Shown here in pieces: positions 641 to 22,103 of a stretch of 64,000 nt of DNA. The notes under the pieces are model-generated. The model was given only the letters and a program-made list of their open reading frames with translations, made no database searches and had not been told where the DNA came from. Position 1 is the first letter of the stretch. Every line of letters begins with the position of its first letter. The stretch is from the NCBI RefSeq assembly GCF_016924755.1, contig NZ_JAFFJX010000001.1:496001-560000 (forward strand), read 5' to 3'. Position numbers and translations under genes: made by a program. Source of the DNA: Longitalea arenae. GTDB lineage: Bacteria; Bacteroidota; Bacteroidia; Chitinophagales; Chitinophagaceae.

Positions 641-1651
641 ATGGCATTGATCCGGTTTGCAATTATTGGTTGTGGAAGAATAGCACAGCGCCATGCTGAG
701 CAGATCTGCAAAAGGGGCAAACTGGTAGCTGTTTGTGATGTTATTCATGAAAAAGCAAGCAGCATGGCCGAAATGTATGGCGCACGTGCCTACTATAACA
801 TAACGGACCTGCTTTTTAAGGAAAGCAACCTTGATATAATAGTTGTATGTACACCCAACGGGTTGCATGCACAGCATTCCATCCAGTCATTGCAGGCGGG
901 TTTTCACGTTTTGTGTGAAAAGCCGATGGCGTTGCATGCAAAGGATGCAGCGGAAATGATAGCTGTGGCCAGGAAGAGTGGCCGGCAATTGTTTGTTGTA
1001 AAGCAGAACAGGTACAATCCACCGGTGGTTGCTGTTAAAAAGGCACTGGATGAGAATCGATTGGGAAAGGTGTTCAGCCTGCAATTGAACTGTTTCTGGA
1101 ACCGGGATGCTTCTTATTATAAAAATTCCTGGAAAGGTACCCGGGAACTGGATGGCGGCACACTGTATACACAATTTAGTCATTTCATTGACCTGCTTTA
1201 CTGGATGATTGGAGATATTAAAGAGGTGCATGCTGTTTTGGCGAATTATGCGCACCAGCAGATCATTGAATTTGAGGATACCGGTTCGGTATTGCTTCAG
1301 TTTGAGAATGGCGCTACAGGTACGATGAATTATACGGTGAACAGCTATAGTAAGAATATGGAAGGATCGCTTACGTTGTTTGCCGAGAAAGGAACTGTAA
1401 AGATCGGTGGGCAATACCTGAATGAGTTGGAATACCAGGATATCAAGGACTATCGTATTGATAACCTACCTGCAGGTAATATAGCCAATAACTATGGCAC
1501 TTATGTAGGCTCAATGAGTAACCATGACAAGGTGTATGATAATGTACTGGACGTGTTACATGATCGTGCACCAATAACCACTCCGGCCGAAGAAGGCCTG
1601 AAAACTGTTGAAATAATAGAAAGGATATACCAGACAGCTACCCGTTTATGA
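641..1651 (+). CDS. Gfo/Idh/MocA oxidoreductase, WbpB/WlbA-like sugar dehydrogenase
   Basis: A 336-residue NAD(P)-dependent oxidoreductase. The N-terminal Rossmann fold carries a GCGRIAQRH nucleotide-binding loop (residues 10-18), the family EKP motif is at residues 93-95, and the substrate-binding half contains GGTLYTQFSHFID with the usual His/Asp pair (H181, D184). WbpB/WlbA enzymes oxidise C3 of UDP-GlcNAcA on the way to 2,3-diacetamido uronic acids. The overlap (ATGA) with a WbpD-like acetyltransferase supports that pathway. The matching UDP-GlcNAc 6-dehydrogenase (WbpA) is not in this window, and the only other unassigned aminotransferase is at 11134. Substrate is therefore inferred; the superfamily is certain. 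Confidence 0.85.
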   Translation: MALIRFAIIGCGRIAQRHAEQICKRGKLVAVCDVIHEKASSMAEMYGARAYYNITDLLFKESNLDIIVVCTPNGLHAQHSIQSLQAGFHVLCEKPMALHAKDAAEMIAVARKSGRQLFVVKQNRYNPPVVAVKKALDENRLGKVFSLQLNCFWNRDASYYKNSWKGTRELDGGTLYTQFSHFIDLLYWMIGDIKEVHAVLANYAHQQIIEFEDTGSVLLQFENGATGTMNYTVNSYSKNMEGSLTLFAEKGTVKIGGQYLNELEYQDIKDYRIDNLPAGNIANNYGTYVGSMSNHDKVYDNVLDVLHDRAPITTPAEEGLKTVEIIERIYQTATRL

Positions 1652-2109
1652 ATGAACCCGTTTTATTAAGAGCTCAATTGAGAGACGTTACCTTCGGCGC
1701 CAATGTGAAGGTAGTGGAACCGGTAAATTTATATGGATGCACGCTGAGCGATGATAGCTTTGTGGGGCCCTTTACGGAAATTCAACAAAACGTACTTATC
1801 GGGAAAAGAACACGGATACAATCTCATAGCTTTATTTGCGAAGGCGTAACAATCGGTGACGATTGCTTTATTGGCCACGGCGTTATGTTCATTAACGATC
1901 TGTTTAAGGAAGGGAGACCGGCAGGCGATAGGGCAAAATGGAAAACCACACATATTGAGAACCATGTTTCCATTGGTTCGAATGCGACCATACTGCCGGT
2001 GTTTATTTGTGAAGGAACTGTAATTGGAGCAGGAGCAGTTGTGACCAGGGACCTCACCAAAAAAGGGATTTATGCCGGCAACCCGGCGCGGCTGGTGCGT
2101 ATACTATAA
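1648..2109 (+). CDS. Left-handed beta-helix N-acetyltransferase, WbpD/WlbB-like
   Basis: A 153-residue protein made almost entirely of hexapeptide repeats (for example VTIGDDCFIGHGV, HVSIGSNATILPV, TVIGAGAVVTRD), which fold as a left-handed beta helix and use acetyl-CoA. It ends with the usual GNPARLVR motif. Length and context match WbpD/WlbB, which acetylates the 3-amino group of UDP-GlcNAc3NA. Its ATG overlaps the stop of the preceding WbpB-like gene (ATGA), so the two are almost certainly translationally coupled. Other sugar O- or N-acetyltransferases of the same fold cannot be excluded. Confidence 0.82.
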   Translation: MNEPVLLRAQLRDVTFGANVKVVEPVNLYGCTLSDDSFVGPFTEIQQNVLIGKRTRIQSHSFICEGVTIGDDCFIGHGVMFINDLFKEGRPAGDRAKWKTTHIENHVSIGSNATILPVFICEGTVIGAGAVVTRDLTKKGIYAGNPARLVRIL

Positions 2110-2143: not shown

Positions 2144-3013
2144 ATGAGTAAGACTGCGAGTAATACCCCCCCTGAGCATTTTGATATTGTGCTGCAACCC
2201 CAAACCAGCTTTTTCAAGCTCAACCTGGCGGAAGTATGGCGATACCGGGATCTTATGTGGTTATTTGTACGCCGCGATTTTGTAGCTCAATACAAACAAA
2301 CGATCCTGGGGCCTGTATGGCATGTAATTCAACCCCTGCTTACAACCTTAATGTTCCTTTTTCTGTTTGGAAAGGTGGCAAACATTCCTACAGATGGAAT
2401 TGAACCAGTCTTATTCTACATGTCGGGAATAACCATCTGGAATTATTTCTCTGCCTGCCTTACTAATACCTCCAATACTTTTATCAGTAATGCTGCGATA
2501 TTTGGAAAGGTATATTTTCCACGCCTGGTTATACCGCTTTCGGTTGTGATCTCGAATATTGTGCGTTTTGGAATTCAATTCGGCCTGTTGCTGGTATTTA
2601 TGATCGTTTACGCTTTTAAAGGTGTTCCAATACATTTTAATTTATACTGGCTTTGTATTCCGATACTTGTTTTTGTAATGGCAGGAATCGGCCTGGGGCT
2701 GGGCATCATCATATCATCGCTTACTACGAAATATCGCGACCTATCCTTTTTACTCACTTTTGCGGTGCAATTGGGTATGTATATAACTCCGGTTGCCTAT
2801 CCGCTCTCTTACCTGGAAAAGACAAAGTACAAGTGGCTGATCGATATTAATCCCCTGACATCTATAACCGAAGCATTCCGTTTTTGCCTGTTTGGTAAAG
2901 GCACTATTGAAATGCAGGGCGTTCTTTACAGTCTGGTATTTATGGTGCTTGTAATAGGTGTGGGTACGCTGGTATTCAACAGGGTGGAAAAGAACTTTAT
3001 GGATACAGTTTAA
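2144..3013 (+). CDS. wzm: ABC polysaccharide/O-antigen exporter, permease Wzm
   Basis: A 289-residue polytopic inner-membrane protein of the ABC-2 type. The N-terminal cytoplasmic stretch has the characteristic RRDFVAQYKQTILGPVW sequence before the first membrane helix, followed by about six hydrophobic segments. It forms the channel that moves undecaprenyl-linked glycan to the periplasm together with the ATPase encoded 12 bp downstream. Length is typical for Wzm/KpsM/TagG proteins. Its presence implies that at least one glycan from this locus is exported as a finished chain. Confidence 0.92.
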   Translation: MSKTASNTPPEHFDIVLQPQTSFFKLNLAEVWRYRDLMWLFVRRDFVAQYKQTILGPVWHVIQPLLTTLMFLFLFGKVANIPTDGIEPVLFYMSGITIWNYFSACLTNTSNTFISNAAIFGKVYFPRLVIPLSVVISNIVRFGIQFGLLLVFMIVYAFKGVPIHFNLYWLCIPILVFVMAGIGLGLGIIISSLTTKYRDLSFLLTFAVQLGMYITPVAYPLSYLEKTKYKWLIDINPLTSITEAFRFCLFGKGTIEMQGVLYSLVFMVLVIGVGTLVFNRVEKNFMDTV

Positions 3014-3025
3014 ATAAATGCGCAC

Positions 3026-4339
3026 ATGAGTGATATTGTAATAAAAGTAGAGGGGCTTTCGAAACAATACCGGTTGGGGCAGATCGGGACTGGCTCTTTA
3101 GCGCATGATATTAACCGGTTATGGTATAAGCTGCGAGGCAAGGAAGATCCATATTTAAAAGTAGGTGAGGAGAACGACCGTACCAAAAAAGCTGAAAGCG
3201 ATTATGTATGGGCGTTGAGGGATGTTAATTTTGACATTAAACAAGGTGAAGTAGTAGGTATTATTGGCCGGAATGGTGCTGGTAAGTCCTCCCTGCTTAA
3301 AATATTAAGCCGCACAACCTCGCCTACAACCGGTCAAGTGAAATTAAAAGGTAGGATCGCCAGTTTACTGGAAGTGGGAACCGGTTTTCATCCCGAGTTA
3401 TCAGGGCGGGAAAATATTTTCCTGAATGGTGCTATACTCGGCATGACGAAGTCGGAGATAAAAAGCAAATTTGATGAAATAGTTGCCTTTAGCGGAGTTG
3501 AAAGGTATATCGATACCCCTGTAAAAAGATATAGCAGTGGTATGTATGTGCGGCTGGCATTTGCAGTGGCTGCGCATTTGCAATCTGAAATTTTGATTGT
3601 TGATGAAGTGTTAGCGGTAGGGGATGCTGAGTTTCAGAAGAAATGTTTGGGCAAAATGAAAGATGTGAGTACCCAGCAGGGACGTACCGTGCTCTTTGTG
3701 AGTCATAACATGGGAGCTGTTCGGGGCTTATGCACCATGGGCATATTGATGCAACATGGTAAAGTAGAGCAACAGGGGCCAGTAAACAATGTAATTGCCA
3801 AATACCTCATAAATCCGTCTGCAGTATTTAATAATATTCTCAAGGATCCGAATGATAGTATAGTTATTGAAAGTGTTGCGTTCAAGAACTCGGCTGGAGA
3901 AAGCACACAGAATTATAAAATAGGTGATGATCTGATCCTGGAAATAAATTACTTCGCAAAAGATCGTTTTGAGCAACCCTATTTCTGGATCGGTGTGGAA
4001 AGCCAGTTTGGTTCTTTGTTCGGAGCCAACATGCTGATAGATGGCAAAAGGCCGGCAGAAGTGAACGGAAAAGGAACGATCGCATGCCGATTTAAAAATC
4101 TGCCTTTAATGCCACAAACATATTCCGTATGGATAGGTGCCAGAGCCAGTGATGGCAGGACGGGGCTTACCAAAGCGAAGGAGGTTGGGTTCTTCAATAT
4201 TGTTAGCAACATCCAGGATCTGTCTGCCGCTGAAAGTGACCATGCTGAAATTCTTGCTAACGATTCTACGCCGGTGATCATAAACTATGAATGGCAAATG
4301 CCAGACGGCAAAACAATTCCAGTAAACTTATTTAATTAA
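3026..4339 (+). CDS. wzt: ABC polysaccharide/O-antigen exporter, ATPase Wzt with C-terminal carbohydrate-binding domain
   Basis: A 437-residue ATPase. Walker A is GRNGAGKSS (residues 81-89), the signature is YSSGMYVRLA (169-178) and Walker B is ILIVDEV (189-195). About 160 residues after the ATPase domain (from about 275) match the beta-sandwich domain that in some Wzt proteins recognises the modified non-reducing end of the O-antigen before export. That extension is consistent with the methyltransferases and other decorating enzymes in this locus, one of which may provide the terminal cap. It is paired with wzm immediately upstream. Confidence 0.93.
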   Translation: MSDIVIKVEGLSKQYRLGQIGTGSLAHDINRLWYKLRGKEDPYLKVGEENDRTKKAESDYVWALRDVNFDIKQGEVVGIIGRNGAGKSSLLKILSRTTSPTTGQVKLKGRIASLLEVGTGFHPELSGRENIFLNGAILGMTKSEIKSKFDEIVAFSGVERYIDTPVKRYSSGMYVRLAFAVAAHLQSEILIVDEVLAVGDAEFQKKCLGKMKDVSTQQGRTVLFVSHNMGAVRGLCTMGILMQHGKVEQQGPVNNVIAKYLINPSAVFNNILKDPNDSIVIESVAFKNSAGESTQNYKIGDDLILEINYFAKDRFEQPYFWIGVESQFGSLFGANMLIDGKRPAEVNGKGTIACRFKNLPLMPQTYSVWIGARASDGRTGLTKAKEVGFFNIVSNIQDLSAAESDHAEILANDSTPVIINYEWQMPDGKTIPVNLFN

Positions 4340-4348
4340 ATATTTAAA

Positions 4349-5362
4349 ATGTTGAATAACAAATCGGTTCTGATAACCGGGGGTACGGGGTCATTCGGAA
4401 AAGCTTTCGTAAAGACCGTTCTGGAACGTTACCCCAATATCAAAAGGCTTGTTATATTTTCCAGGGATGAGCAGAAGCAATTCCAAATGGCACAGGAATA
4501 TCCCCATGACAAATATCCTATGATCAGGTTTTTCATCGGGGATGTAAGGGATTTTGAAAGGGTGAAGCGAGCGCTTAATGGCATTGATATAGTTGTGCAT
4601 GCAGCAGCTATGAAGCATGTGCCCATTGCCGAATACAACCCAAACGAGTGTATTCGCACCAATATTACAGGTGCTGAGAACATAATACATGCGTCGCTGG
4701 AATGCGGTGTAGAAAATGTGGTAGCCCTTTCAACAGATAAGGCGGCGGCCCCTATCAATTTGTACGGCGCGACTAAACTGGTATCTGATAAATTATTTAT
4801 TGCAGCGAATAATATTCGCGGAAATCATAACATTAAATTCTCAGTTGTTCGATACGGAAATGTAATGGGTTCTAACGGTTCAGTTATTCCGTTTTTCCTG
4901 AATAAGAAAAAAACAGGCATATTACCTATTACCGACCCTGAAATGACGCGATTTAATATCTCATTGAAAGAAGGTGTGCAAATGGTGTTATTCGCATTGG
5001 AAAATGCCTGGGGTGGCGAGCTGTTTGTTCCAAAGATACCTTCCTATAGTATTATGGAAGTGGCGAAAGCAATAGGGCCGAACTGTGAGCATAAACATAT
5101 TGGTGTAAGACCCGGTGAAAAGGTGCATGAAGAAATGATCACTGCTTCTGACTCATTGTTTACCTACGATATTGGCAAATATTACGTCATACTTCCTTTT
5201 ACACACGACTGGTCGTTGGAAGAATACATTAAAAAGTTTAATGCTGTGAAAGTACCTGTAGGATTCAGGTATAATTCAGGTGAGAATACGGAGTGGCTTA
5301 CTGCTGCCCAATTGAGATCATTAATTGTTGAACACGTTGATTCAAACTTTGTAGCATCATGA
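4349..5362 (+). CDS. pseB: UDP-N-acetylglucosamine 4,6-dehydratase (inverting), PseB
   Basis: A 337-residue short-chain dehydrogenase of the FlaA1/PseB type. It has the GGTGSFGKAF NADP-binding motif (residues 11-20), the STDKA motif (D130, K131) and the YGATK catalytic pair (Y139, K143). PseB converts UDP-GlcNAc to UDP-2-acetamido-2,6-dideoxy-beta-L-arabino-hex-4-ulose, the first step of pseudaminic acid synthesis. The stop overlaps the start of pseC (ATGA). Gene order pseB-pseC-pseG-x-pseI-pseF makes the call secure. Confidence 0.96.
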   Translation: MLNNKSVLITGGTGSFGKAFVKTVLERYPNIKRLVIFSRDEQKQFQMAQEYPHDKYPMIRFFIGDVRDFERVKRALNGIDIVVHAAAMKHVPIAEYNPNECIRTNITGAENIIHASLECGVENVVALSTDKAAAPINLYGATKLVSDKLFIAANNIRGNHNIKFSVVRYGNVMGSNGSVIPFFLNKKKTGILPITDPEMTRFNISLKEGVQMVLFALENAWGGELFVPKIPSYSIMEVAKAIGPNCEHKHIGVRPGEKVHEEMITASDSLFTYDIGKYYVILPFTHDWSLEEYIKKFNAVKVPVGFRYNSGENTEWLTAAQLRSLIVEHVDSNFVAS

Positions 5363-6510
5363 AGCCAATTCCTTACGGACGGCAGCACATAACAGAAAGT
5401 GATATTGAAGCGGTTATCACCACACTGACGTCGGATTTTTTAACCCAGGGGCCAACAATCGAGGAATTTGAAAAGGCATTCGCAAAATATATAGGCTGTC
5501 AATATGCAGTCGCGGTAAGCAATGGAACAGCGGCATTACACCTGGCTGCCATGGCTATGCAGGCAGGTGAAAATACGAACGTGATCACTTCGCCTATCAC
5601 TTTTGCGGCATCGGCAAATTGCGTTAGGTATTGCGGCGGTAATGTGTTTTTTGCAGACATCGACGCCAATACGTTTTGTTTAGACATAGAGAAAGTGGAA
5701 GCGCTGATCCAGTCAAAACCGAAAGGTTTTTTCCATGGAATAATACCGGTTGACCTGGCCGGCTACCCGGTAAACCTCGAATCATTCAGGCAATTGGCCG
5801 ATCAGCATGGATTATGGATCATTGAAGATTCCTGTCATGCGCCGGGTGGATACATCGTTGATTCAAAGGGTACGAAACAATATTGTGGCAATGGGATATA
5901 CAGTGATCTTGCCATATTCTCTTTTCATCCGGTAAAACATATTGCCTGTGGTGAAGGAGGCATGATCACTACCAATAATGAAGCATTGTACAAAAAATTA
6001 CTGCTTCTTCGCACACATGGTATTACAAAAGATGCTTCGCTCATGCATGAAAATCATGGCGGCTGGTATTATGAAATGCAGGAGTTGGGTTACAATTACC
6101 GTTTGACCGATTTTCAGGCAGCCCTTGGCCTCTCACAATTAAAAAGGGCTAACGAAGGACTTGAAAAAAGAAGATCCATCGCCTCCGTATACAATGAAGC
6201 GTTTAAGAACCGGTCCTTTATTAAAGGCCAATCAGGCGTAGTGGAAGGGCATGCCTATCATTTATATGTGATACGGACGGCAAAGAGAAAAGAGTTATAT
6301 GATTTTCTCCGCGCAAGGAATATTTTCTGCCAGGTGCATTACATACCGGTACATACGCTCCCATACTATCAATCGCTGGGTTGGAAAAAAGGTGCATTCC
6401 CTGAAGCCGAGCAGTACTATCAGGAATGTTTGAGCTTACCCATGTATCCTACATTAAAGCCGGAAGAGCAGGAATTCGTAATCAACAGCGTAATTGAGTT
6501 TCATAAATAA
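5359..6510 (+). CDS. pseC: UDP-4-amino-4,6-dideoxy-N-acetyl-beta-L-altrosamine transaminase, PseC
   Basis: A 383-residue PLP-dependent aminotransferase of the DegT/DnrJ/EryC1 family, with the PseC-typical N-terminus (IPYGRQHI) and the PLP lysine K193 in FHPVKHIACGEGG. D157 in IIEDSCHAPGG is in the position that contacts the pyridine nitrogen. It aminates C4 of the PseB product using glutamate. The length is normal for PseC. The product is the amino sugar that is normally acetylated by PseH; in this locus a formyltransferase follows instead. Confidence 0.95.
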   Translation: MKPIPYGRQHITESDIEAVITTLTSDFLTQGPTIEEFEKAFAKYIGCQYAVAVSNGTAALHLAAMAMQAGENTNVITSPITFAASANCVRYCGGNVFFADIDANTFCLDIEKVEALIQSKPKGFFHGIIPVDLAGYPVNLESFRQLADQHGLWIIEDSCHAPGGYIVDSKGTKQYCGNGIYSDLAIFSFHPVKHIACGEGGMITTNNEALYKKLLLLRTHGITKDASLMHENHGGWYYEMQELGYNYRLTDFQAALGLSQLKRANEGLEKRRSIASVYNEAFKNRSFIKGQSGVVEGHAYHLYVIRTAKRKELYDFLRARNIFCQVHYIPVHTLPYYQSLGWKKGAFPEAEQYYQECLSLPMYPTLKPEEQEFVINSVIEFHK

Positions 6511-7561
6511 GTACGTGTACACTGCCTTGAAAGATAGTAACCAAATACGTGTGGTGTTCCGTGCAGATGGTAATAGCAAAACAGGTCTTGGGCATATTTT
6601 TCGTTCATTGTCAATGATTGACATGCTGAAAAACGATTTTGAATGCGTGTTCATGATTAACAAACCTGATCCATCGCTTATTCGATTAATTGAAAGTTAT
6701 TGCAAATTTGTACTGTTGAATGCGGCAACCATTGAAGAAGAGTTGAGCGTATTGGATGAAAAATTGCTCGCTAATGATATTGTAGTGACGGATGGATATC
6801 AGTTTGACGAAGTTTATCAGCAATTTCTTAAGGCAAAAGTAAGAAAGCTGGTCATGGTAGATGATATGGCAGACAAGCATTATTATGCTGACCTTATCAT
6901 CAATCATGGTGATGCCTCAGTAAAAGATAAATACCGTAAAGAAAATTACACCAAAGTTTTAGCCGGTTTTCCCTATTCGATAATCCGGAAGGAATATCTA
7001 CGTGCGGCGCAGGTTAAAAAAGTTATTACGAAGATTGATACTATTTTCATTTGCATGGGAGGCGCCGATCCATTCAATATAACGATTAAAGCCATTACCG
7101 CCTCTCTGCAATGTGATTTTATCAACCAGATAGTGGTGGTTACCGGCAGTGCTTACAGCAACAGGGATGAACTGAAAAAGACCCTCAATGCAGTTACAGA
7201 TAAGAAAATTATACACGAAGAAAATATAGCAGCAAACCGCATGGTTGAGCTGATAAACATGAGTGAAATTGCCATTACCCCTGCCAGTTCCATTGCAATG
7301 GAGATCTGTTGTGTAAAAGCAGGCTTACTGAGCGGCACTGTCATCGATAACCAGGAAGCTATACTAAAACAACTTATAAGTGCAGGTTGTTGCCTTTCTT
7401 TAGGTGATTTTAATACCGCAACTGAACGGGATATAGCTGACCACCTCATGAAGCTGAATGACCGCCATCTGGTTACTTCCCTTGTACAGAAACAGGCGGT
7501 GGCAATCGATGGCGTTTCAGGTGAAAGAATATTGAATGAATTTAAAATGCTTGTGGCCTGA
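6494..7561 (+). CDS. pseG: UDP-2,4-diacetamido-2,4,6-trideoxy-beta-L-altropyranose hydrolase, PseG
   Basis: A GT-B-fold hydrolase of up to 355 residues. The hallmark is the N-terminal loop RADGNSKTGLGHIFRSLS, matching PseG. It removes UDP to release the free trideoxy sugar for PseI. No ATG precedes the conserved start: the open frame can begin at TTG 6494 (overlapping pseC by 17 nt), GTG 6515 or TTG 6527. The 6527 start would place the RADGN motif near residue 13, which fits the family better, so the first 11 residues are doubtful. The stop overlaps the next start as TGATG. Confidence 0.93.
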   Translation: MSFINKYVYTALKDSNQIRVVFRADGNSKTGLGHIFRSLSMIDMLKNDFECVFMINKPDPSLIRLIESYCKFVLLNAATIEEELSVLDEKLLANDIVVTDGYQFDEVYQQFLKAKVRKLVMVDDMADKHYYADLIINHGDASVKDKYRKENYTKVLAGFPYSIIRKEYLRAAQVKKVITKIDTIFICMGGADPFNITIKAITASLQCDFINQIVVVTGSAYSNRDELKKTLNAVTDKKIIHEENIAANRMVELINMSEIAITPASSIAMEICCVKAGLLSGTVIDNQEAILKQLISAGCCLSLGDFNTATERDIADHLMKLNDRHLVTSLVQKQAVAIDGVSGERILNEFKMLVA

Positions 7562-8439
7562 TGGAGCTTCAGTTTGGAATATTGGCCAGTGGTAGGTTAG
7601 GGGCCATTTGTACCGAACGCTTATTGAAAACGAAGCGGATAAGTTTTGTGTTTACCGACAAATTTTCAACAGGTGTCATCGAGCTGTGTAATAAAGGAGG
7701 CATCCCTTTATTCGTGGGAAATCCCAGAAATGGTAAAGCGGCATCCTTTATTGAACAATTTAAGGTAGACGTATTACTATCCATCAACTATTTGTTTATC
7801 GTAGAAAAGGATATTATCAACCTGGCCAGGAAATATGCGATTAACCTGCACGGTTCTTTATTGCCTAAATACCGCGGGCGAACACCACATGTGTGGGCAA
7901 TAATCAATAACGAAAAAGAAACTGGAATAACGGCTCACCTGATCACTGAAGGATGTGATGAAGGAGATATTGTTTTTCAGGAGAAGATCACAATAAATGA
8001 CAGCGATACGGGCGCTACGCTGTTGGAGAAGTTCAACGAGCGGTATCCGGCGATCATTAGTAAAGTCATTGACATGATAGAAAATCATACTATCATGCCT
8101 GTAAAACAAAATAATGCCGAAGCGACTTACTTTGGCAAGCGCACGCCGTTAGATGGTGAAATAAACTGGAACTGGCAAAAGGAGCAGATCAATAACTGGG
8201 TACGCGCTCAGGCCAGGCCTTATCCCGGGGCGTTTACTTTTTATGAGAATACAAAAGTTATTATTCATAAGATTGAATACGTGAATACGGGTTTTCACCA
8301 AAACGATCAGAATGGTAAGATATTAAATGCAGACCAGCTAATCGTAAAAACTCCCAATGGAGCAGTGAGGCTTGTGGATTTTGAAAAGGAGAATCATATA
8401 ATATTTAAAATTGGCAACGTATTTCATGCAGGACATTAA
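7561..8439 (+). CDS. N10-formyltetrahydrofolate-dependent sugar N-formyltransferase in the PseH position
   Basis: A 292-residue protein of the methionyl-tRNA formyltransferase family. The catalytic Asn and His are N95 and H97 in NLHGSLLPKYRG, and the Asp is D133 in CDEGDI, so the N/H/D triad is complete. The C-terminal part resembles the small Fmt-like second domain. It is embedded in the pse cassette (TGATG overlap with pseG, about 14 nt overlap with pseI), exactly where many clusters carry the acetyltransferase PseH. I infer that it formylates the 4-amino group of the PseC product, giving a 7-N-formyl pseudaminic acid. A role on another amino sugar made by the genes at 10181-12438 is the main alternative. 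A housekeeping tRNA formyltransferase is unlikely in this setting. Confidence 0.85.
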   Translation: MELQFGILASGRLGAICTERLLKTKRISFVFTDKFSTGVIELCNKGGIPLFVGNPRNGKAASFIEQFKVDVLLSINYLFIVEKDIINLARKYAINLHGSLLPKYRGRTPHVWAIINNEKETGITAHLITEGCDEGDIVFQEKITINDSDTGATLLEKFNERYPAIISKVIDMIENHTIMPVKQNNAEATYFGKRTPLDGEINWNWQKEQINNWVRAQARPYPGAFTFYENTKVIIHKIEYVNTGFHQNDQNGKILNADQLIVKTPNGAVRLVDFEKENHIIFKIGNVFHAGH

Positions 8440-9478
8440 AATTGGCAATACGATAATCGGCGAAAGCCATAAGCCTTTTATTATCGCCGAAATGAGCGGT
8501 AACCATAATCAATCTCTCGATAAGGCCTTATCTATTATTGATGCTGCAGCCGCTACAGGCGCCCATGCAATAAAACTTCAAACATACACCGCAGATTCCC
8601 TGACAATAGACGTTTCGCACAACGAATTCTTTATTTCTGATCCTACGTCATTATGGAAAGGAAGAAACCTGTATGAGCTATACCAGGAAGCACATACGCC
8701 CTGGAATTGGCACAAAGCATTATTCGACCGCGCTAAAGAAAAGGGGATTATTTGTTTCAGCACTCCATTTGATGATGCGGCGGTAGATCTGCTGGAATCA
8801 TTAGGTGCACCTGCTTATAAGATAGCTTCTTTCGAGAATAATCACCTGCCCCTGTTAAAGCGCGTTGCAAGAACAGGAAAGCCGGTTATAATGTCAACGG
8901 GTATTTCTACCCTGGCTGATATTGAAATAGCAGTAAAAACGCTAAAGGACAATGGTTGCCGTGACCTGGTGCTGTTAAAATGTACCAGCACGTACCCGGC
9001 AACCCCTGAAAATACCAATGTTGTTACGATCCCACATATGGCTGAGATGTTCAACTGTCATGTGGGGTTATCGGATCATACCCTCGGCATTGGGGTTTCC
9101 GTGGCTTCAGTTGCCCTGGGGGCGCGGGTGATAGAAAAACATTTTACCATTAGCAGGGCTGAAGGTGGTGTGGATTCTGCATTTTCGATGGAACCACAGG
9201 AATTCAAAATGCTTGTGGAGGAAACCGAGCGGGCATTTTTGGGATTGGGGAAAGTAACCTATGGCATCCTGGAGGATGAAAAGAAGAGCCTTACGTTTAA
9301 ACGTTCTATTTATATAGTGGAAGATATGAAAGCCGGTGACACTTTTAGTAGCCATAATATCCGGATCATACGCCCGGGTTTAGGTATGGCGCCGCGCTAT
9401 TTTGAAACTGTGTTAGGCAAATCGGTAAATAAAGATGTAAAAAAAGGAACTGCATTAACTTTTGATCTAATTGGATAA
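8426..9478 (+). CDS. pseI: Pseudaminic acid synthase, PseI (NeuB family)
   Basis: About 350 residues. A TIM-barrel NeuB domain (FIIAEMSGNHNQ near the start; STGISTLADIE; KCTSTYPATPENTN; GLSDHT) is followed by a C-terminal SAF/antifreeze-like domain (from about residue 290, KRSIYIVEDMKAGD). It condenses phosphoenolpyruvate with the PseG product to give pseudaminic acid. ATG 8426 is preferred over the in-frame TTG at 8411 because MQDIKIGNTIIG aligns with the usual PseI beginning. It overlaps the preceding formyltransferase and joins pseF through TAATG. Confidence 0.95.
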   Translation: MQDIKIGNTIIGESHKPFIIAEMSGNHNQSLDKALSIIDAAAATGAHAIKLQTYTADSLTIDVSHNEFFISDPTSLWKGRNLYELYQEAHTPWNWHKALFDRAKEKGIICFSTPFDDAAVDLLESLGAPAYKIASFENNHLPLLKRVARTGKPVIMSTGISTLADIEIAVKTLKDNGCRDLVLLKCTSTYPATPENTNVVTIPHMAEMFNCHVGLSDHTLGIGVSVASVALGARVIEKHFTISRAEGGVDSAFSMEPQEFKMLVEETERAFLGLGKVTYGILEDEKKSLTFKRSIYIVEDMKAGDTFSSHNIRIIRPGLGMAPRYFETVLGKSVNKDVKKGTALTFDLIG

Positions 9479-10188
9479 TGAATAACTGTATAGCCATAAT
9501 AACTGCCAGGGGCGGAAGCAAAAGAATTCCCCGGAAGAACATCAAGAACTTTTTGGGCAGCCCTATCATAAAATATTCCATCGATGCCGCCCGCTTTGCC
9601 GGTTGCTTCGATGAGGTAATGGTGTCTACCGATGATAAGGAGATTGCTGAAATTGCTTTATCACTGGGCGCCAACGTCCCATTTACGCGATCAAAAGAGA
9701 ATTCGGGCGACTTTGCCACAACAGCTGATGTTATTTACGAAGTGTTGGATTCGTATAAAAAGCAGGGCCGCGAGTTTAAATATTGTTGCTGCATTTATCC
9801 AACTGCCCCGTTTGTTACAGCGGAAAAGCTAAGACTCGCATACGACAAATTAATTGAGAGCAATGCAGAATCTGTAGTACCAATAGTGCGGTTTGGATTT
9901 CCGATCATGAGATCATTTAAGATCGAGAATGGATTGGTTAAAATGAACTGGCCTGAGCACATGAATACCCGGTCTCAGGACCTGCCACCAGCATTTCATG
10001 ATTGCGGACAGTTTTATTTTTTAAAGACTGAATCATTTTTGAAGAATAAAAAACTGTTTACCGATTTCACCGTACCTGTTGAAATGCCGGAATCGGAAGT
10101 ACAGGACATAGACAATGAAGAAGATTGGAAGATAGCGGAGATCAAGTATAGCTTTTTGCTGGACAAGAAAAGATCAGAGCATGTTTAA
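9478..10188 (+). CDS. pseF: Pseudaminic acid cytidylyltransferase, PseF
   Basis: A 236-residue CMP-nonulosonate synthetase. The N-terminal ITARGGSKRIPRKNIK motif binds CTP. It activates pseudaminic acid to CMP-Pse, the donor for a glycosyltransferase of this locus. Length is typical. The ATG shares bases with the pseI stop (TAATG), and the 3' end overlaps the next oxidoreductase gene by 8 nt, so the cassette is a single transcriptional unit. Confidence 0.95.
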   Translation: MNNCIAIITARGGSKRIPRKNIKNFLGSPIIKYSIDAARFAGCFDEVMVSTDDKEIAEIALSLGANVPFTRSKENSGDFATTADVIYEVLDSYKKQGREFKYCCCIYPTAPFVTAEKLRLAYDKLIESNAESVVPIVRFGFPIMRSFKIENGLVKMNWPEHMNTRSQDLPPAFHDCGQFYFLKTESFLKNKKLFTDFTVPVEMPESEVQDIDNEEDWKIAEIKYSFLLDKKRSEHV

Positions 10189-11133: not shown

Positions 11134-12438
11134 ATGGCCAAGCTTGCGATCAACGGAGGCAAACCGGTACGTACAAAATTATTTCCAGCTTATAATACGA
11201 TTGGCGAAGAAGAAAAACGCGCTGTAATGAAGGTGCTTGATAGCGGGAACCTCTCTCAATTCCTGGGTGCCTGGCACAAGGACTTTTATGGAGGGCCAAC
11301 TGTTCAACAATTTGAAAAAGATTGGGCAAGTTTTTTCGGTAATAAATATGCAATCAGTGTAAACTCGAATACCAGTGGTTTATTTACCGCAATTGGCGCT
11401 TTGGGTATCAAGGCTGGCGACGAAGTGATCGTTTCTCCATACACCATGAGCGCGAGTGCACTGGCGCCAGTAATTTATGGCGCAGTTCCGGTGTTTGCCG
11501 ATGTGGATTATAATAATTATGGGCTCGATCCAGAAAGTGTAGAAAGGTGTATAACACCGAGAACAAAAGCCATTTTGGTAGTGCATATTTTTGGTAATCC
11601 TGCACGTATGGATGAAATTATGGCTATTGCCAGAAAGCATAACCTGTATGTGATCGAGGATTGCGCACAAGCTCCCATGGCCACCTATAAGGATAAATAT
11701 GTAGGCAGCATTGGAGATATTGGCATTTTCAGCTTAAATTATCATAAGCATATTCACACTGGTGAGGGTGGCATAGTTGTCACTAACAATGATCAGATCG
11801 CCGAACGGGTTTACTTAATAAGAAATCATGGCGAAAATATTGTAGAGCCAAAAGGCATTAAAGATGTGTACAATACATTCGGCTACAATTACCGGATGAC
11901 AGAGATGGAAGCTGCTGTAGGCATTGAGCAATTGAAGAAGCTTCCGGCGCTGATAGAAGAAAGATTGAAGAATGCAGCCTATATGGCCACTGAATTTGGA
12001 AAAATTGAAGGCTTTACTCCCCCCCTTGTGGAAAGTAGCAGTAAGCATGTGTATTACCTTCAGGCTATTAAGTATAAAAAGGAAATCTTAGGCGTTGATC
12101 GCAACACATTTATAAATGCATTAAAGGCAGAGATACCTTCGGCTATATTACGCGAAGACACACCACTTATCAGCCCCGGGTATGTAAAGCCATTATATCT
12201 TCAACCACTCTATCAACAACGAGCTACCCATTGTTCGTTCAATTGTGAAAAGTACAAAGGCAGTGTTGATTATAGCAAAGGTATTTGCCCGAACGCTGAA
12301 AAGCTGCACTTCGATGAACTGTTCACCCATGAATATATGCGGCCGGGGATGAGCAAAAGTGATTTAGACGATGTGATAGCCGCATTTCGCAAAGTGGCTG
12401 AGAACATAAATGAATTAAAAGTTGCTGCCAGCGCTTAA
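11134..12438 (+). CDS. DegT/DnrJ/EryC1-family sugar aminotransferase, extended
   Basis: A 434-residue PLP enzyme. K205 in NYHKHIHTGEGG is the Schiff-base lysine and D176 in VIEDCAQAP binds the cofactor. It is roughly 50 residues longer than typical family members such as pseC here. The extra part, about residues 350-385, contains three cysteines (THCSFNCEKY, GICPNAEK). It probably works with the oxidoreductase 2 nt upstream to aminate a ketosugar. It could also act as the WbpE partner of the WbpB/WbpD-like genes at the start of the locus. The 3' end overlaps the next gene by 17 nt. Confidence 0.85.
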   Translation: MAKLAINGGKPVRTKLFPAYNTIGEEEKRAVMKVLDSGNLSQFLGAWHKDFYGGPTVQQFEKDWASFFGNKYAISVNSNTSGLFTAIGALGIKAGDEVIVSPYTMSASALAPVIYGAVPVFADVDYNNYGLDPESVERCITPRTKAILVVHIFGNPARMDEIMAIARKHNLYVIEDCAQAPMATYKDKYVGSIGDIGIFSLNYHKHIHTGEGGIVVTNNDQIAERVYLIRNHGENIVEPKGIKDVYNTFGYNYRMTEMEAAVGIEQLKKLPALIEERLKNAAYMATEFGKIEGFTPPLVESSSKHVYYLQAIKYKKEILGVDRNTFINALKAEIPSAILREDTPLISPGYVKPLYLQPLYQQRATHCSFNCEKYKGSVDYSKGICPNAEKLHFDELFTHEYMRPGMSKSDLDDVIAAFRKVAENINELKVAASA

Positions 12439-13378: not shown

Positions 13379-14031
13379 TGTCTGAGAACAATCTCATCAA
13401 GCAAAAAGCAAATGATATTTATAACGAGGCTTTTAATCAGTATCATGATGATATAAGATCGGTGCTGTGTGCGAATCAGCAGCGGCAGTACCTGCGATTT
13501 GCTGAATTGTTGAAGTATGTCGATCATAATGATGCGTCGAAAGAGATCCTGGAAGTGGGTTGTGGATCTGCAGATTTGTATAAGTATTTAAACTTTAATG
13601 GTTACAGGGGAAAATACACTGGATACGATATCAACGAGAATCTGTTAAACCTGGCGAAAGCTAAATATGTAAACGTTAATGTAGAGTTGGTAGACATTTT
13701 GGAGAGCAAAGCAACCAGGAAATTTGATTATGTTCTTATGAGCGGTGTATTTAATGTGATGGTGGGACAGGATATGAATTGGATCAGGGCTTTTGTAACA
13801 AAAATGTTTGAGTTATGCACCAACCATATTGCATTCAACGCATTGTCTACATATGTCAACTTCAAGGATGATAAAATGTTTTATATAGATCCTTTTGAGA
13901 TCGCGAGGTATTGCACTGAAAACCTTTCGAAGAGAGTCACTTTATTACACCATAATTTGCCTTATAATTATACCCTGGTAGTGTTCAAAGACCAGGATTT
14001 AAATACAACAATTGAAAAGTCGGAAGAATAA
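13378..14031 (+). CDS. SAM-dependent class I methyltransferase
   Basis: A 217-residue methyltransferase. Motif I is ILEVGCGSADLY (about residues 57-68) and the next acidic motif is YTGYDINENLL, as expected for S-adenosylmethionine binding. Nothing reveals the acceptor; a sugar hydroxyl, amino or carboxyl group of the glycan is likely from context. It is TAATG-coupled to both neighbours. Confidence 0.78.
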   Translation: MSENNLIKQKANDIYNEAFNQYHDDIRSVLCANQQRQYLRFAELLKYVDHNDASKEILEVGCGSADLYKYLNFNGYRGKYTGYDINENLLNLAKAKYVNVNVELVDILESKATRKFDYVLMSGVFNVMVGQDMNWIRAFVTKMFELCTNHIAFNALSTYVNFKDDKMFYIDPFEIARYCTENLSKRVTLLHHNLPYNYTLVVFKDQDLNTTIEKSEE

Positions 14032-14987
14032 TGAGCTTTGACGTTAATTTTGATGAATCGAAGCAAAACTGGGATAACTTTGCTGTAACCTCGCCTCATT
14101 ATTCCATTTTCTTAAATAGTAAATTCCTGGATTCACTAAATAGCCCCTATAAGTGCATCACTGTATATGAGGACCATAAAATAGCAGCAGGCGCGGTTTT
14201 GTTTTTTGATGAAAGCGGACATCCACGGTTGAATAATATGGTGTATACGCAGTTTCAGGGGATGATACTTGCGGATCAGGGTGCCGCACCTGCCCATTCA
14301 AAATACCATTGGGAACTGGAGGTTATAAACTTTTTTATTGAAAGCCTGACAGCCAGGTTCAAACATTTTTTCTTATGCCAGTCGTGGAGGTTTGAAGATG
14401 CGAGGGCATTCCTATGGCATAATTACCACAGTCCGGATAAAGGCGTATTTAAATGTAATCTGCGATATACCGGGTTATTGCCTTTGAATGAATTGCATTC
14501 AGAGTCAGCTTATCTGGATGCTATCAGAAAATTGAGAAAAAGGGAATATCAAAAAGCGCAGAAAGCAGGATATACGATCCATGAATCGCAGGACATCCAG
14601 TTATTGAATCACCTGCACAACCTGACTTTTGAGCGTCAGGAAATTACTATCGGGGAAAGTGAACAGAAGCGATTAATGTCTATTGCGGAAGCGGCGATCA
14701 GTAACAGGTATGGTAAAATTTTGGTTTGCAGGAGTGCTGCGGGCGAAGTTACCAATGCTACCTTGTTTTTATATGACGCCAGGTGCGGTTATTATCTGAT
14801 AGGAGCTAATGACCCTAACTTCAGAAATTCAGGCAGTTCGACTTTTCTGATGATCAAAAACATTTTTGATTGTAAAGAAATGGGGCTGGAATATGTAGAT
14901 TTTGTAGGGATTAATTCACCCAACAGGGGCGATTTTAAAATAAGCTTCAACGCGGTTCCCAAATCATATTTTGAACTATCCATCTAA
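14031..14987 (+). CDS. FemAB/GNAT-like acyl- or aminoacyl-transferase
   Basis: A 318-residue protein with the FemAB/BioF2-like double-GNAT arrangement. The basic stretch LRKREYQKAQKAG lies in the middle, and the C-terminal domain has GYYLIGANDPNFRNSGSS followed by a YVDFVGINSPNRGDFK end, typical of this superfamily. Such proteins transfer acyl or aminoacyl groups to amino sugars in polysaccharide loci. It could supply N-acylation of an amino sugar, and it is an alternative candidate for an acetylation step missing from the pse cassette, although PseH is a single-domain GNAT of about 170 residues. Confidence 0.65.
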   Translation: MSFDVNFDESKQNWDNFAVTSPHYSIFLNSKFLDSLNSPYKCITVYEDHKIAAGAVLFFDESGHPRLNNMVYTQFQGMILADQGAAPAHSKYHWELEVINFFIESLTARFKHFFLCQSWRFEDARAFLWHNYHSPDKGVFKCNLRYTGLLPLNELHSESAYLDAIRKLRKREYQKAQKAGYTIHESQDIQLLNHLHNLTFERQEITIGESEQKRLMSIAEAAISNRYGKILVCRSAAGEVTNATLFLYDARCGYYLIGANDPNFRNSGSSTFLMIKNIFDCKEMGLEYVDFVGINSPNRGDFKISFNAVPKSYFELSI

Positions 14988-21116: not shown

Positions 21117-22103
21117 TTGCAAAGCGAACGAAAAATAAACGTAATAACGCAGTTGAGGGGAATCGCAGCTTTAGCGGTTTTTCTTTTTCATTTTGTATGC
21201 GTTTCCGGAGACTTTATTAACAGTAAGTTGGCGCATTCAATATTTTATTATGGGAAATATGGCGTTCAATTCTTTTTTGTTATATCGGGGTTCGTTATAA
21301 CCTATTCAATGATTAAGGGCGGATATACGCTGGGCAAGGCATTTATTTTTTTTAAGAAGCGTATAATACGAGTAGAGCCGCCTTATTTGGTTGTATTATG
21401 CTTGACCGTTTGTCTATTGTATTTAAAGAGCTATTTGGGATTGGCAAAAGGTACAGAACAAATTCCCGGTATATCCCAGATACTCTTACATGTAGGATAT
21501 TTGATCCCTTTTAGCAAGTATGAATGGCTTAGTATAGTTTTTTGGACACTTGCCATTGAGTTCCAGTTTTATTTGATTTTTTCAGTACTTTTTATAGCTT
21601 TTGCACATTCGGTTTGGCTACGTTCAATAGTGATAGCTTCTCTGATAGTCTTATACCTGTTTGAAACATCAGGTCAGAGTTTCTTTTATTGGTCCCCTAT
21701 TTTTATGTTAGGCATTCTTCTGGCCTTTTACAAAGTGCAAAAACTAAAAGCCTGGGAGTTATTATTATATTCAATTGTACTAGGCGCTTTTATTTATTAC
21801 AAACTTGGCTTTGTCAATCTTGTTTTTACAATTATTCCTTTTTTAATAATTTATTTGAACCCCGCGTTAAAAAGCCGGGTGCTTACCTTTTTCGGGGATA
21901 TATCGTATTCTTTATACCTGATCCATACATTAATAGCATTTACCATCATTAATTTGTCATTTAGATTTGGTGTAGGAACGGGAGGTAGAATAGCTTTTGG
22001 ATTTTTTGCGATCGCTTTAACCATTCTCGGAAGTTATTTACTCTATTTATTTGTAGAAAAGCCATTTAAAAAGCGTGCCTTAGAAATCTCTTATAAATCA
22101 TAA
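21117..22103 (+). CDS. Acyltransferase-3 (OafA/YrhL-like) membrane O-acetyltransferase
   Basis: A 328-residue integral membrane protein with about ten hydrophobic helices. The family motif LRGIAALAVFLFHF (R14, H25) is present at the N-terminus, and FFVISGFVITY follows. Such proteins O-acetylate O-antigens or exopolysaccharides from acetyl-CoA at the inner membrane. It lacks a periplasmic SGNH extension. The start is a TTG at 21117, 9 nt after the previous stop. Confidence 0.88.
   Translation: MQSERKINVITQLRGIAALAVFLFHFVCVSGDFINSKLAHSIFYYGKYGVQFFFVISGFVITYSMIKGGYTLGKAFIFFKKRIIRVEPPYLVVLCLTVCLLYLKSYLGLAKGTEQIPGISQILLHVGYLIPFSKYEWLSIVFWTLAIEFQFYLIFSVLFIAFAHSVWLRSIVIASLIVLYLFETSGQSFFYWSPIFMLGILLAFYKVQKLKAWELLLYSIVLGAFIYYKLGFVNLVFTIIPFLIIYLNPALKSRVLTFFGDISYSLYLIHTLIAFTIINLSFRFGVGTGGRIAFGFFAIALTILGSYLLYLFVEKPFKKRALEISYKS

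Follow-up and report, generated by a model that had tools for sequence, protein, structure and literature searches.

The window, as the whole stretch of 64,000 nucleotides from Longitalea arenae is called here (contig NZ_JAFFJX010000001.1, positions 496,001 to 560,000), holds a compact gene cassette for the biosynthesis of pseudaminic acid (Pse), in which a formyltransferase gene, referred to below as FMT, stands in the slot of the GNAT N-acetyltransferase PseH. The source genome amounts to 7.28 Mb, with an estimated completeness of 99.98%.

A pse cassette with a formyltransferase in the PseH slot

The cassette consists of six genes:

4349..5362, + strand: pseB, UDP-GlcNAc 4,6-dehydratase (inverting); TIGR03589, 512.3 bits (cut-off 407.75)
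5359..6510, + strand: pseC, aminotransferase yielding the UDP-4-amino sugar; TIGR03588, 469.3 bits (cut-off 423.5)
6494..7561, + strand: pseG, UDP-sugar hydrolase of 355 residues; TIGR03590, 182 bits (cut-off 153.55)
7561..8439, + strand: FMT, formyltransferase of 292 residues in the slot of PseH; PF00551 and PF02911
8411..9478, + strand: pseI, pseudaminic acid synthase; TIGR03586, 506 bits (cut-off 340.25)
9478..10188, + strand: pseF, CMP-Pse synthetase; TIGR03584, 301.4 bits (cut-off 205.7)

PseB, PseC, PseG, PseI and PseF thus all exceed their curated NCBIfam cut-offs, and the order pseB-pseC-pseG-FMT-pseI-pseF with overlapping starts and stops, as an earlier note on this DNA had described it, was confirmed. 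The overlaps measure 4, 17, 1, 29 and 1 bases when computed from the starts of the longest open reading frames (ORFs), although those of 17 and 29 bases are upper limits, since pseG and pseI both begin with TTG in these ORFs, in the PseI ORF an in-frame ATG lies five codons downstream of that start, and the PseG model match begins only at residue 19. The window PseG has no Pfam match at E 0.001 and is devoid of the C-terminal GNAT domain that many of its relatives carry, and which Pfam recognises in four fused PseG relatives of 475-511 residues.

FMT combines the domains Formyl_trans_N (PF00551) and Formyl_trans_C (PF02911), and its Asn-His-Asp triad is complete, as the earlier note had read it (N95, H97 and D133, in 18/18 aligned sequences, the other 17 being 41-58% identical to it). 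It reaches no NCBIfam cut-off, the best model being that of ArnA (PRK08125, 197 of 777 bits), and the same holds for each of the five members of its family that were tested (0/5), so that current models leave the family without a name. The structural comparison with sugar N-formyltransferases that had been proposed as a check returned an ArnA-type two-domain fold. In the AlphaFold model (predicted local distance difference test, pLDDT, 92.3; predicted template modelling score, pTM, 0.84; alignment of 18 sequences including FMT itself), the ten best PDB folds found by Foldseek are all ArnA entries (TM score 0.85-0.90, 30-33% identity; the E value to ArnA is 1.9e-27). Sequence comparison of the full protein with the PDB is likewise led by ArnA with 137 bits, PseJ, a reported Pse formyltransferase, following with 58; with the first 184 residues as query, the scores are 83 bits for ArnA, 72 for the GDP-perosamine formyltransferase WbkC, 60 for LgrA, 59 for PseJ and 59-60 for Fmt. 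Both domains and the catalytic triad of an ArnA-type sugar N-formyltransferase are therefore present, while FMT is not ArnA proper: the PRK08125 cut-off is not reached and the fused dehydrogenase is absent from its 292 residues. Nor is PseJ the closest match of the catalytic domain, and orthology with PseJ was rejected on this score order. Since it resembles PseJ no more closely than it does Fmt, the window FMT probably represents, judging from these scores, a second recruitment separate from PseJ. The formyltransferase tree consists of long branches meeting, with 17 of its 28 inner branches below 80 support and the low-scoring formyltransferases in no stable placement.

A PseH gene was not visible in the window to the earlier note, and within these 64 kb no ORF of at least 70 residues matches, at E 0.1, the models of the slot-type GNATs or of G185 (a conserved protein treated below). 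A genome-wide search for a PseH homologue returned four PseH-family matches, all below the cut-off (best 46.5 of 93.1 bits). Among the GNATs of the genome, three that match the PseH model (L006, L007 and L008) score higher to another family, and a fourth (L009) does not match PseH at E 1e-6. Of another two GNATs, one (L110) matches a single other family and one (L112) does not match any. A profile made from seven GNATs had ten weak matches genome-wide, the best with 46.4 bits, and no match in the window. A negative from the PseH model is not reliable here, the model being weak in Bacteroidota: the slot GNAT of locus L019, with 72 bits, and that of L016, unmatched at E 1e-10, fall below the same cut-off, despite being recognised by Pfam.

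Formyltransferases and GNATs in front of pseI

The relation between FMT and GNATs was examined in 395 Bacteroidota genomes, which yielded 59 pseI matches, 57 of them over the cut-off. Of these genes 58 were classified, G364 (L107) being left out for a pseI below the 250-bit blastp filter and G567 (L106), under the cut-off and cut by the contig, being kept. A GNAT was counted if it formed a fusion with PseG or with G185 or stood free at a distance of up to three genes, in a span of 6 kb. Within that span, FMT accompanies pseI in 6 cases and a GNAT in 36, with neither in 16 and both in none (Fisher P 0.0018). The gene immediately 5' of pseI is FMT in 6 cases, a PseG-GNAT fusion in 20, a free GNAT in 8-10, a G185-GNAT fusion in 2, pseF in 1 and another ORF in 19-21. 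In an order-level sample of 23 pseI genes, FMT was near 3, a GNAT near 15 and neither near 5; of these last five, three lie near the end of a contig or on a short one. Close relatives of FMT (E 1e-45) occur in six of the 395 genomes, all six inside pse cassettes. The substitution can be followed within the family of the window itself: locus L016 reads pseG, GNAT, pseI, pseF, Gfo/Idh, DegT, with the GNAT exactly where the window has FMT, and differs further by three extra ORFs between pseC and pseG.

A scan of named genomes provided 18 FMT loci, mostly from Bacteroidota, including one from a metagenome-assembled genome labelled Chloroflexi and one from another labelled Bacteriovorax. The family is sharply bounded, comprising 25 ORFs of at least 363 bits with the next score at 64, and FMT lies immediately 5' of pseI in all 25 copies, or in 24 after removal of a duplicate record (L041 and L015 are one record; L051 and L053, with equal scores, may be one species), in a locus set that is biased, most of it having been fetched through FMT. 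The gene 5' of FMT is in turn pseG in 13 copies and G185 in 12.

Some other elements of these loci deserve mention in their own right. Short formyltransferase-like ORFs of 217-234 residues (22-41 bits) occur in L096 (11420-12115), L097 (9782-10486) and L104 (10637-11290), immediately 5' of pseI in the latter and one to two ORFs off in the other two; they possibly form another formyltransferase lineage. Considered as PseJ candidates, they are left unassigned: L096 and L097 carry a PseG-GNAT fusion, and the best PDB match of the L104 ORF is ArnA, PseJ not being among its 15 matches. A Pse-associated methylase (TIGR03587, over the cut-off) is encoded inside the cassettes of L017 (11914-12522) and L045 (8040-8684), the second of which has FMT. 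Finally, a run formed by a GNAT of 164-188 residues and ORFs of about 290, 253 and 435 residues recurs in pse clusters (L038:4847-8259, L051, L064 and L071) with and without FMT, and probably belongs to a separate sugar pathway.

Predicted pathway and rival readings

The occupied slot, the near-exclusivity with GNATs, the constant adjacency to pseI and the ArnA-type fold together support, as a prediction, what the earlier note had proposed, namely that FMT formylates the PseC product in place of PseH. With a probability of roughly 0.8, FMT replaces PseH and the cassette makes a CMP-activated pseudaminic acid with a formyl group on N7, predicted to be CMP-Pse5Ac7Fo. The substrate, donor and product that we infer would fit together as follows. 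PseB and PseC would convert UDP-GlcNAc into UDP-4-amino-4,6-dideoxy-beta-L-AltNAc; FMT would transfer a formyl group from 10-formyl-tetrahydrofolate to the 4-amine of this product, where PseH would add acetyl; PseG would remove UDP from the formylated sugar; PseI would condense it with phosphoenolpyruvate; and PseF would add CMP. The substrate of ArnA, which it formylates at the 4-amine, is UDP-beta-L-Ara4N, a UDP-beta-L 4-amino sugar like the PseC product, so that, by analogy, the relation between FMT and ArnA would be chemically coherent with this substrate. If the prediction holds, the genome sequence would tell which bacteria display formyl and which acetyl pseudaminic acid; antibodies, phages and lectins could be sensitive to this difference.

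Several observations weigh against replacement of PseH by FMT. The 16 pseI genes (of 58) with neither FMT nor a modelled GNAT within 6 kb mean that these two enzymes do not account for all cassettes. Lowering the GNAT threshold from 35 to 15 bits produces, with a 6- or 9-kb span, one overlap (L038, one of the six FMT loci) and a P value of 0.012, the GNAT in question being some 5 kb away from pseI; at 15 bits and a 3-kb span, the overlap is again zero. The P values themselves overstate independence, the sampled genomes being related and the two samples sharing members. Extra GNATs outside the slot in some FMT loci (L015/L041, L038, L046, L048 and L051/L053) contradict a perfect exclusivity, and the short formyltransferase-like ORFs of L096 and L097 occur together with a GNAT. 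In the source genome, a diverged PseH may, as far as model scores go, be encoded elsewhere, the best rival GNAT (L006) scoring 46.7 to PseH and 49.2 to its best family, and the window encodes other putative acyltransferases: a hexapeptide acetyltransferase (1648-2109), a weakly matched FemAB/Acetyltransf_6 protein (14031-14987) and an Acyl_transf_3 protein (21117-22103).

The genes that surround the cassette bear on the alternatives:

2144..4339, + strand: ABC polysaccharide exporter, with membrane protein (2144-3013) and ATPase with Wzt_C (3026-4339); PF01061, PF00005, PF14524
10181..11131, + strand: Gfo/Idh/MocA oxidoreductase, PF01408; a conserved neighbour, outside the Pse pathway itself
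11134..12438, + strand: DegT-family aminotransferase, a neighbour; matches to the PseC and LegC families, below cut-off

The last two, on which the earlier note was silent, follow pseF directly, pseF overlapping the Gfo/Idh gene. Further downstream lie genes for two glycosyltransferases, two FkbM methyltransferases and an Acyl_transf_3 protein (21117-22103); the Pfam scan of this context covers ten proteins and, beyond 16 kb, part of the ORFs. With the exporter upstream and these genes downstream, the setting is a surface polysaccharide cluster. At the left end of the window (641-2109), a Gfo/Idh oxidoreductase gene (641-1651) precedes the hexapeptide acetyltransferase gene, which together resemble a 3-amino-sugar acylation pair.

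The Gfo/Idh-DegT pair and the presence of several GNATs in the genome lend some plausibility to a role of FMT on another amino sugar of the cluster, such as the DegT product, with a GNAT elsewhere acting as PseH. Yet the same pair follows pseF in L016, L017 and L019, loci with GNATs but without FMT, and it accompanies only the window and L044 among the 25 FMT copies (L015/L041 have DegT alone, and some loci are cut by the contig), while FMT adjoins pseI in every copy; this role is improbable. Somewhat less probable still is an action of FMT on the same nitrogen at a later step, after PseG, PseI or PseF, on the free sugar or on 7-amino-Pse. In favour are the position of its gene between pseG and pseI and the fact that reactions need not follow the order of the genes; against it, ArnA, its closest solved relative, uses a UDP-sugar. 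In GNAT-type cassettes, moreover, it is a GNAT that holds the slot, and PseH acts before PseG in the pathway outlined in PMC5109656.

We give even less credence to a scenario in which the hexapeptide or the FemAB-like protein replaces PseH and FMT provides an additional modification. The first matches the NeuD/PglB/VioB sugar acetyltransferase subfamily (74.8 bits, below the cut-off of 160.8) and the second gives weak PF02388 and PF13480 matches, but both genes are located beyond the cassette, and that of the hexapeptide protein forms a pair with the oxidoreductase gene, as in 3-amino-sugar pathways. For the FemAB-like protein, a comparison with 93 pse-locus stretches returned no relative at E 1e-5, and, from what is known of the pathway, PseC leaves only one free amine for acylation. 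Duplication of a methionyl-tRNA formyltransferase with no sugar role, suggested by a match of that model to FMT (133.9 bits, below the cut-off of 201.5), has a negligible probability and was rejected because contig C40 carries a separate formyltransferase of 328 residues, read as the housekeeping Fmt (near its start is GTPEFA, a signature of Fmt), and FMT scores higher to ArnA than to Fmt.

The PseG slot and comparison with known systems

In many cassettes without PseG, its position is held by G185, a conserved unit of about 185 residues (protein or domain), for instance at:

L047:9390-9947
L013:10274-11281
L063:8405-9418
L101:11417-12970

Among the 58 pseI genes, 45 have PseG nearby, 8 have G185, none has both and 5 have neither (Fisher P 6.7e-7). 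In the 23 genomes with FMT, many of them metagenome-assembled and without a given completeness, PseG exceeds the cut-off in 11, which are the ones where it adjoins FMT, and does not do so in the 12 others, which are the ones with G185. Ten more G185 genomes, lacking FMT and 98-100% complete, have no PseG above the cut-off either; it is thus absent from all 22 G185 genomes tested and present in 4/4 comparison genomes without G185. L013 and L014 belong to one genus and agree both in their formyltransferase, a low-scoring one, and in the score of their G185. The predicted fold of G185 is that of a GNAT (pLDDT 90.5), the best match being Helicobacter pylori PseH in complex with acetyl-CoA. The motif Q/R/H-x-x-G-x-G/A/S, the usual acetyl-CoA loop motif of GNATs, is absent from 21 of the 22 copies over the 40 residues from strand 4 on, and anywhere in the domain it appears in 3/22 G185 copies versus 40/57 slot-type GNATs. 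G185 is fused to a second GNAT in L013, L014, L063 and L065, as PseG also is, and to a carbamoyl-phosphate-synthase-like domain in L101 (match below cut-off).

Did G185 replace PseG, or is it a PseH in disguise? The distribution suggests the former. The modelled fold would also allow the plain reading that G185 is a PseH that has diverged and that another gene encodes the hydrolase, in which case FMT would be an addition, not a replacement, in the 12 G185 loci. The window has PseG and no G185, so its own reading is independent of this question. Tentatively, and with more doubt than confidence, Bacteroidota Pse synthesis could be pictured as a two-by-two module, in which the acyl step is performed by a GNAT (acetyl) or by an ArnA-like formyltransferase independent of PseJ, and the hydrolase step by PseG or by G185, a GNAT fold that lost the acetyl-CoA loop and replaced PseG. 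The window would then be the PseG-plus-formyl version, and G185 would either be a UDP-sugar hydrolase of a novel type or open a route that does without PseG. With a GNAT-fold protein standing in for PseG, an unassigned step in a pathway otherwise studied in depth would become open to direct testing.

The closest functional precedent for FMT is PseJ. In Anoxybacillus, it reportedly takes over the role of PseH on the PseC product, leading to 7-formamido Pse, and the pathway is said to have been reconstituted up to formylation. Four PDB entries (6ci2, 6ci4, 6ci5 and 6edk) contain molecules named formyltransferase PseJ. Its catalytic domain belongs to the same superfamily as that of FMT, with about 97 aligned core residues and 59 bits, level with LgrA and Fmt; unlike its chains of 192-217 residues, the window FMT has the C-terminal PF02911 domain. 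With the N-terminal formyltransferase domain of ArnA, FMT has in common the two-domain layout and the triad, and differs from it in the lack of a fused dehydrogenase and in a pse context instead of lipid A modification. With PseH, it shares the slot and, by inference, the substrate nitrogen, whereas the fold is unrelated and the acyl donor different.

The sugar itself is also known from bacterial glycans, among which the earlier note had named O-antigens: 7-formamido Pse is described in the polysaccharide of Pseudoalteromonas distincta KMM 638 (PMC3210612) and N7-formylated Pse in the pilin trisaccharide of Pseudomonas aeruginosa 1244 (PMC6222762). The type II-IV flagellin glycosylation islands of Geobacillus, according to passages of PMC5109656, have pse genes without PseH, as the window does, and both type III strains carry a formyltransferase gene, fmt2, which those passages do not assign to the Pse pathway. 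No description of the FMT family or of G185 was found in the open-licence literature, a scope that leaves out most subscription journals. The formyl-for-acetyl principle is thus already known from PseJ, the 7-formamido sugars and the Geobacillus islands, and the novelty implied by the earlier note is lower than it had suggested, a formyltransferase PseJ being in the PDB and 7-formamido Pse a known sugar. Compared with these systems, the present one differs in the lineage of its enzyme, in the constant position of this enzyme's gene ahead of pseI across the Bacteroidota and in the alternation between it and a GNAT in this slot.

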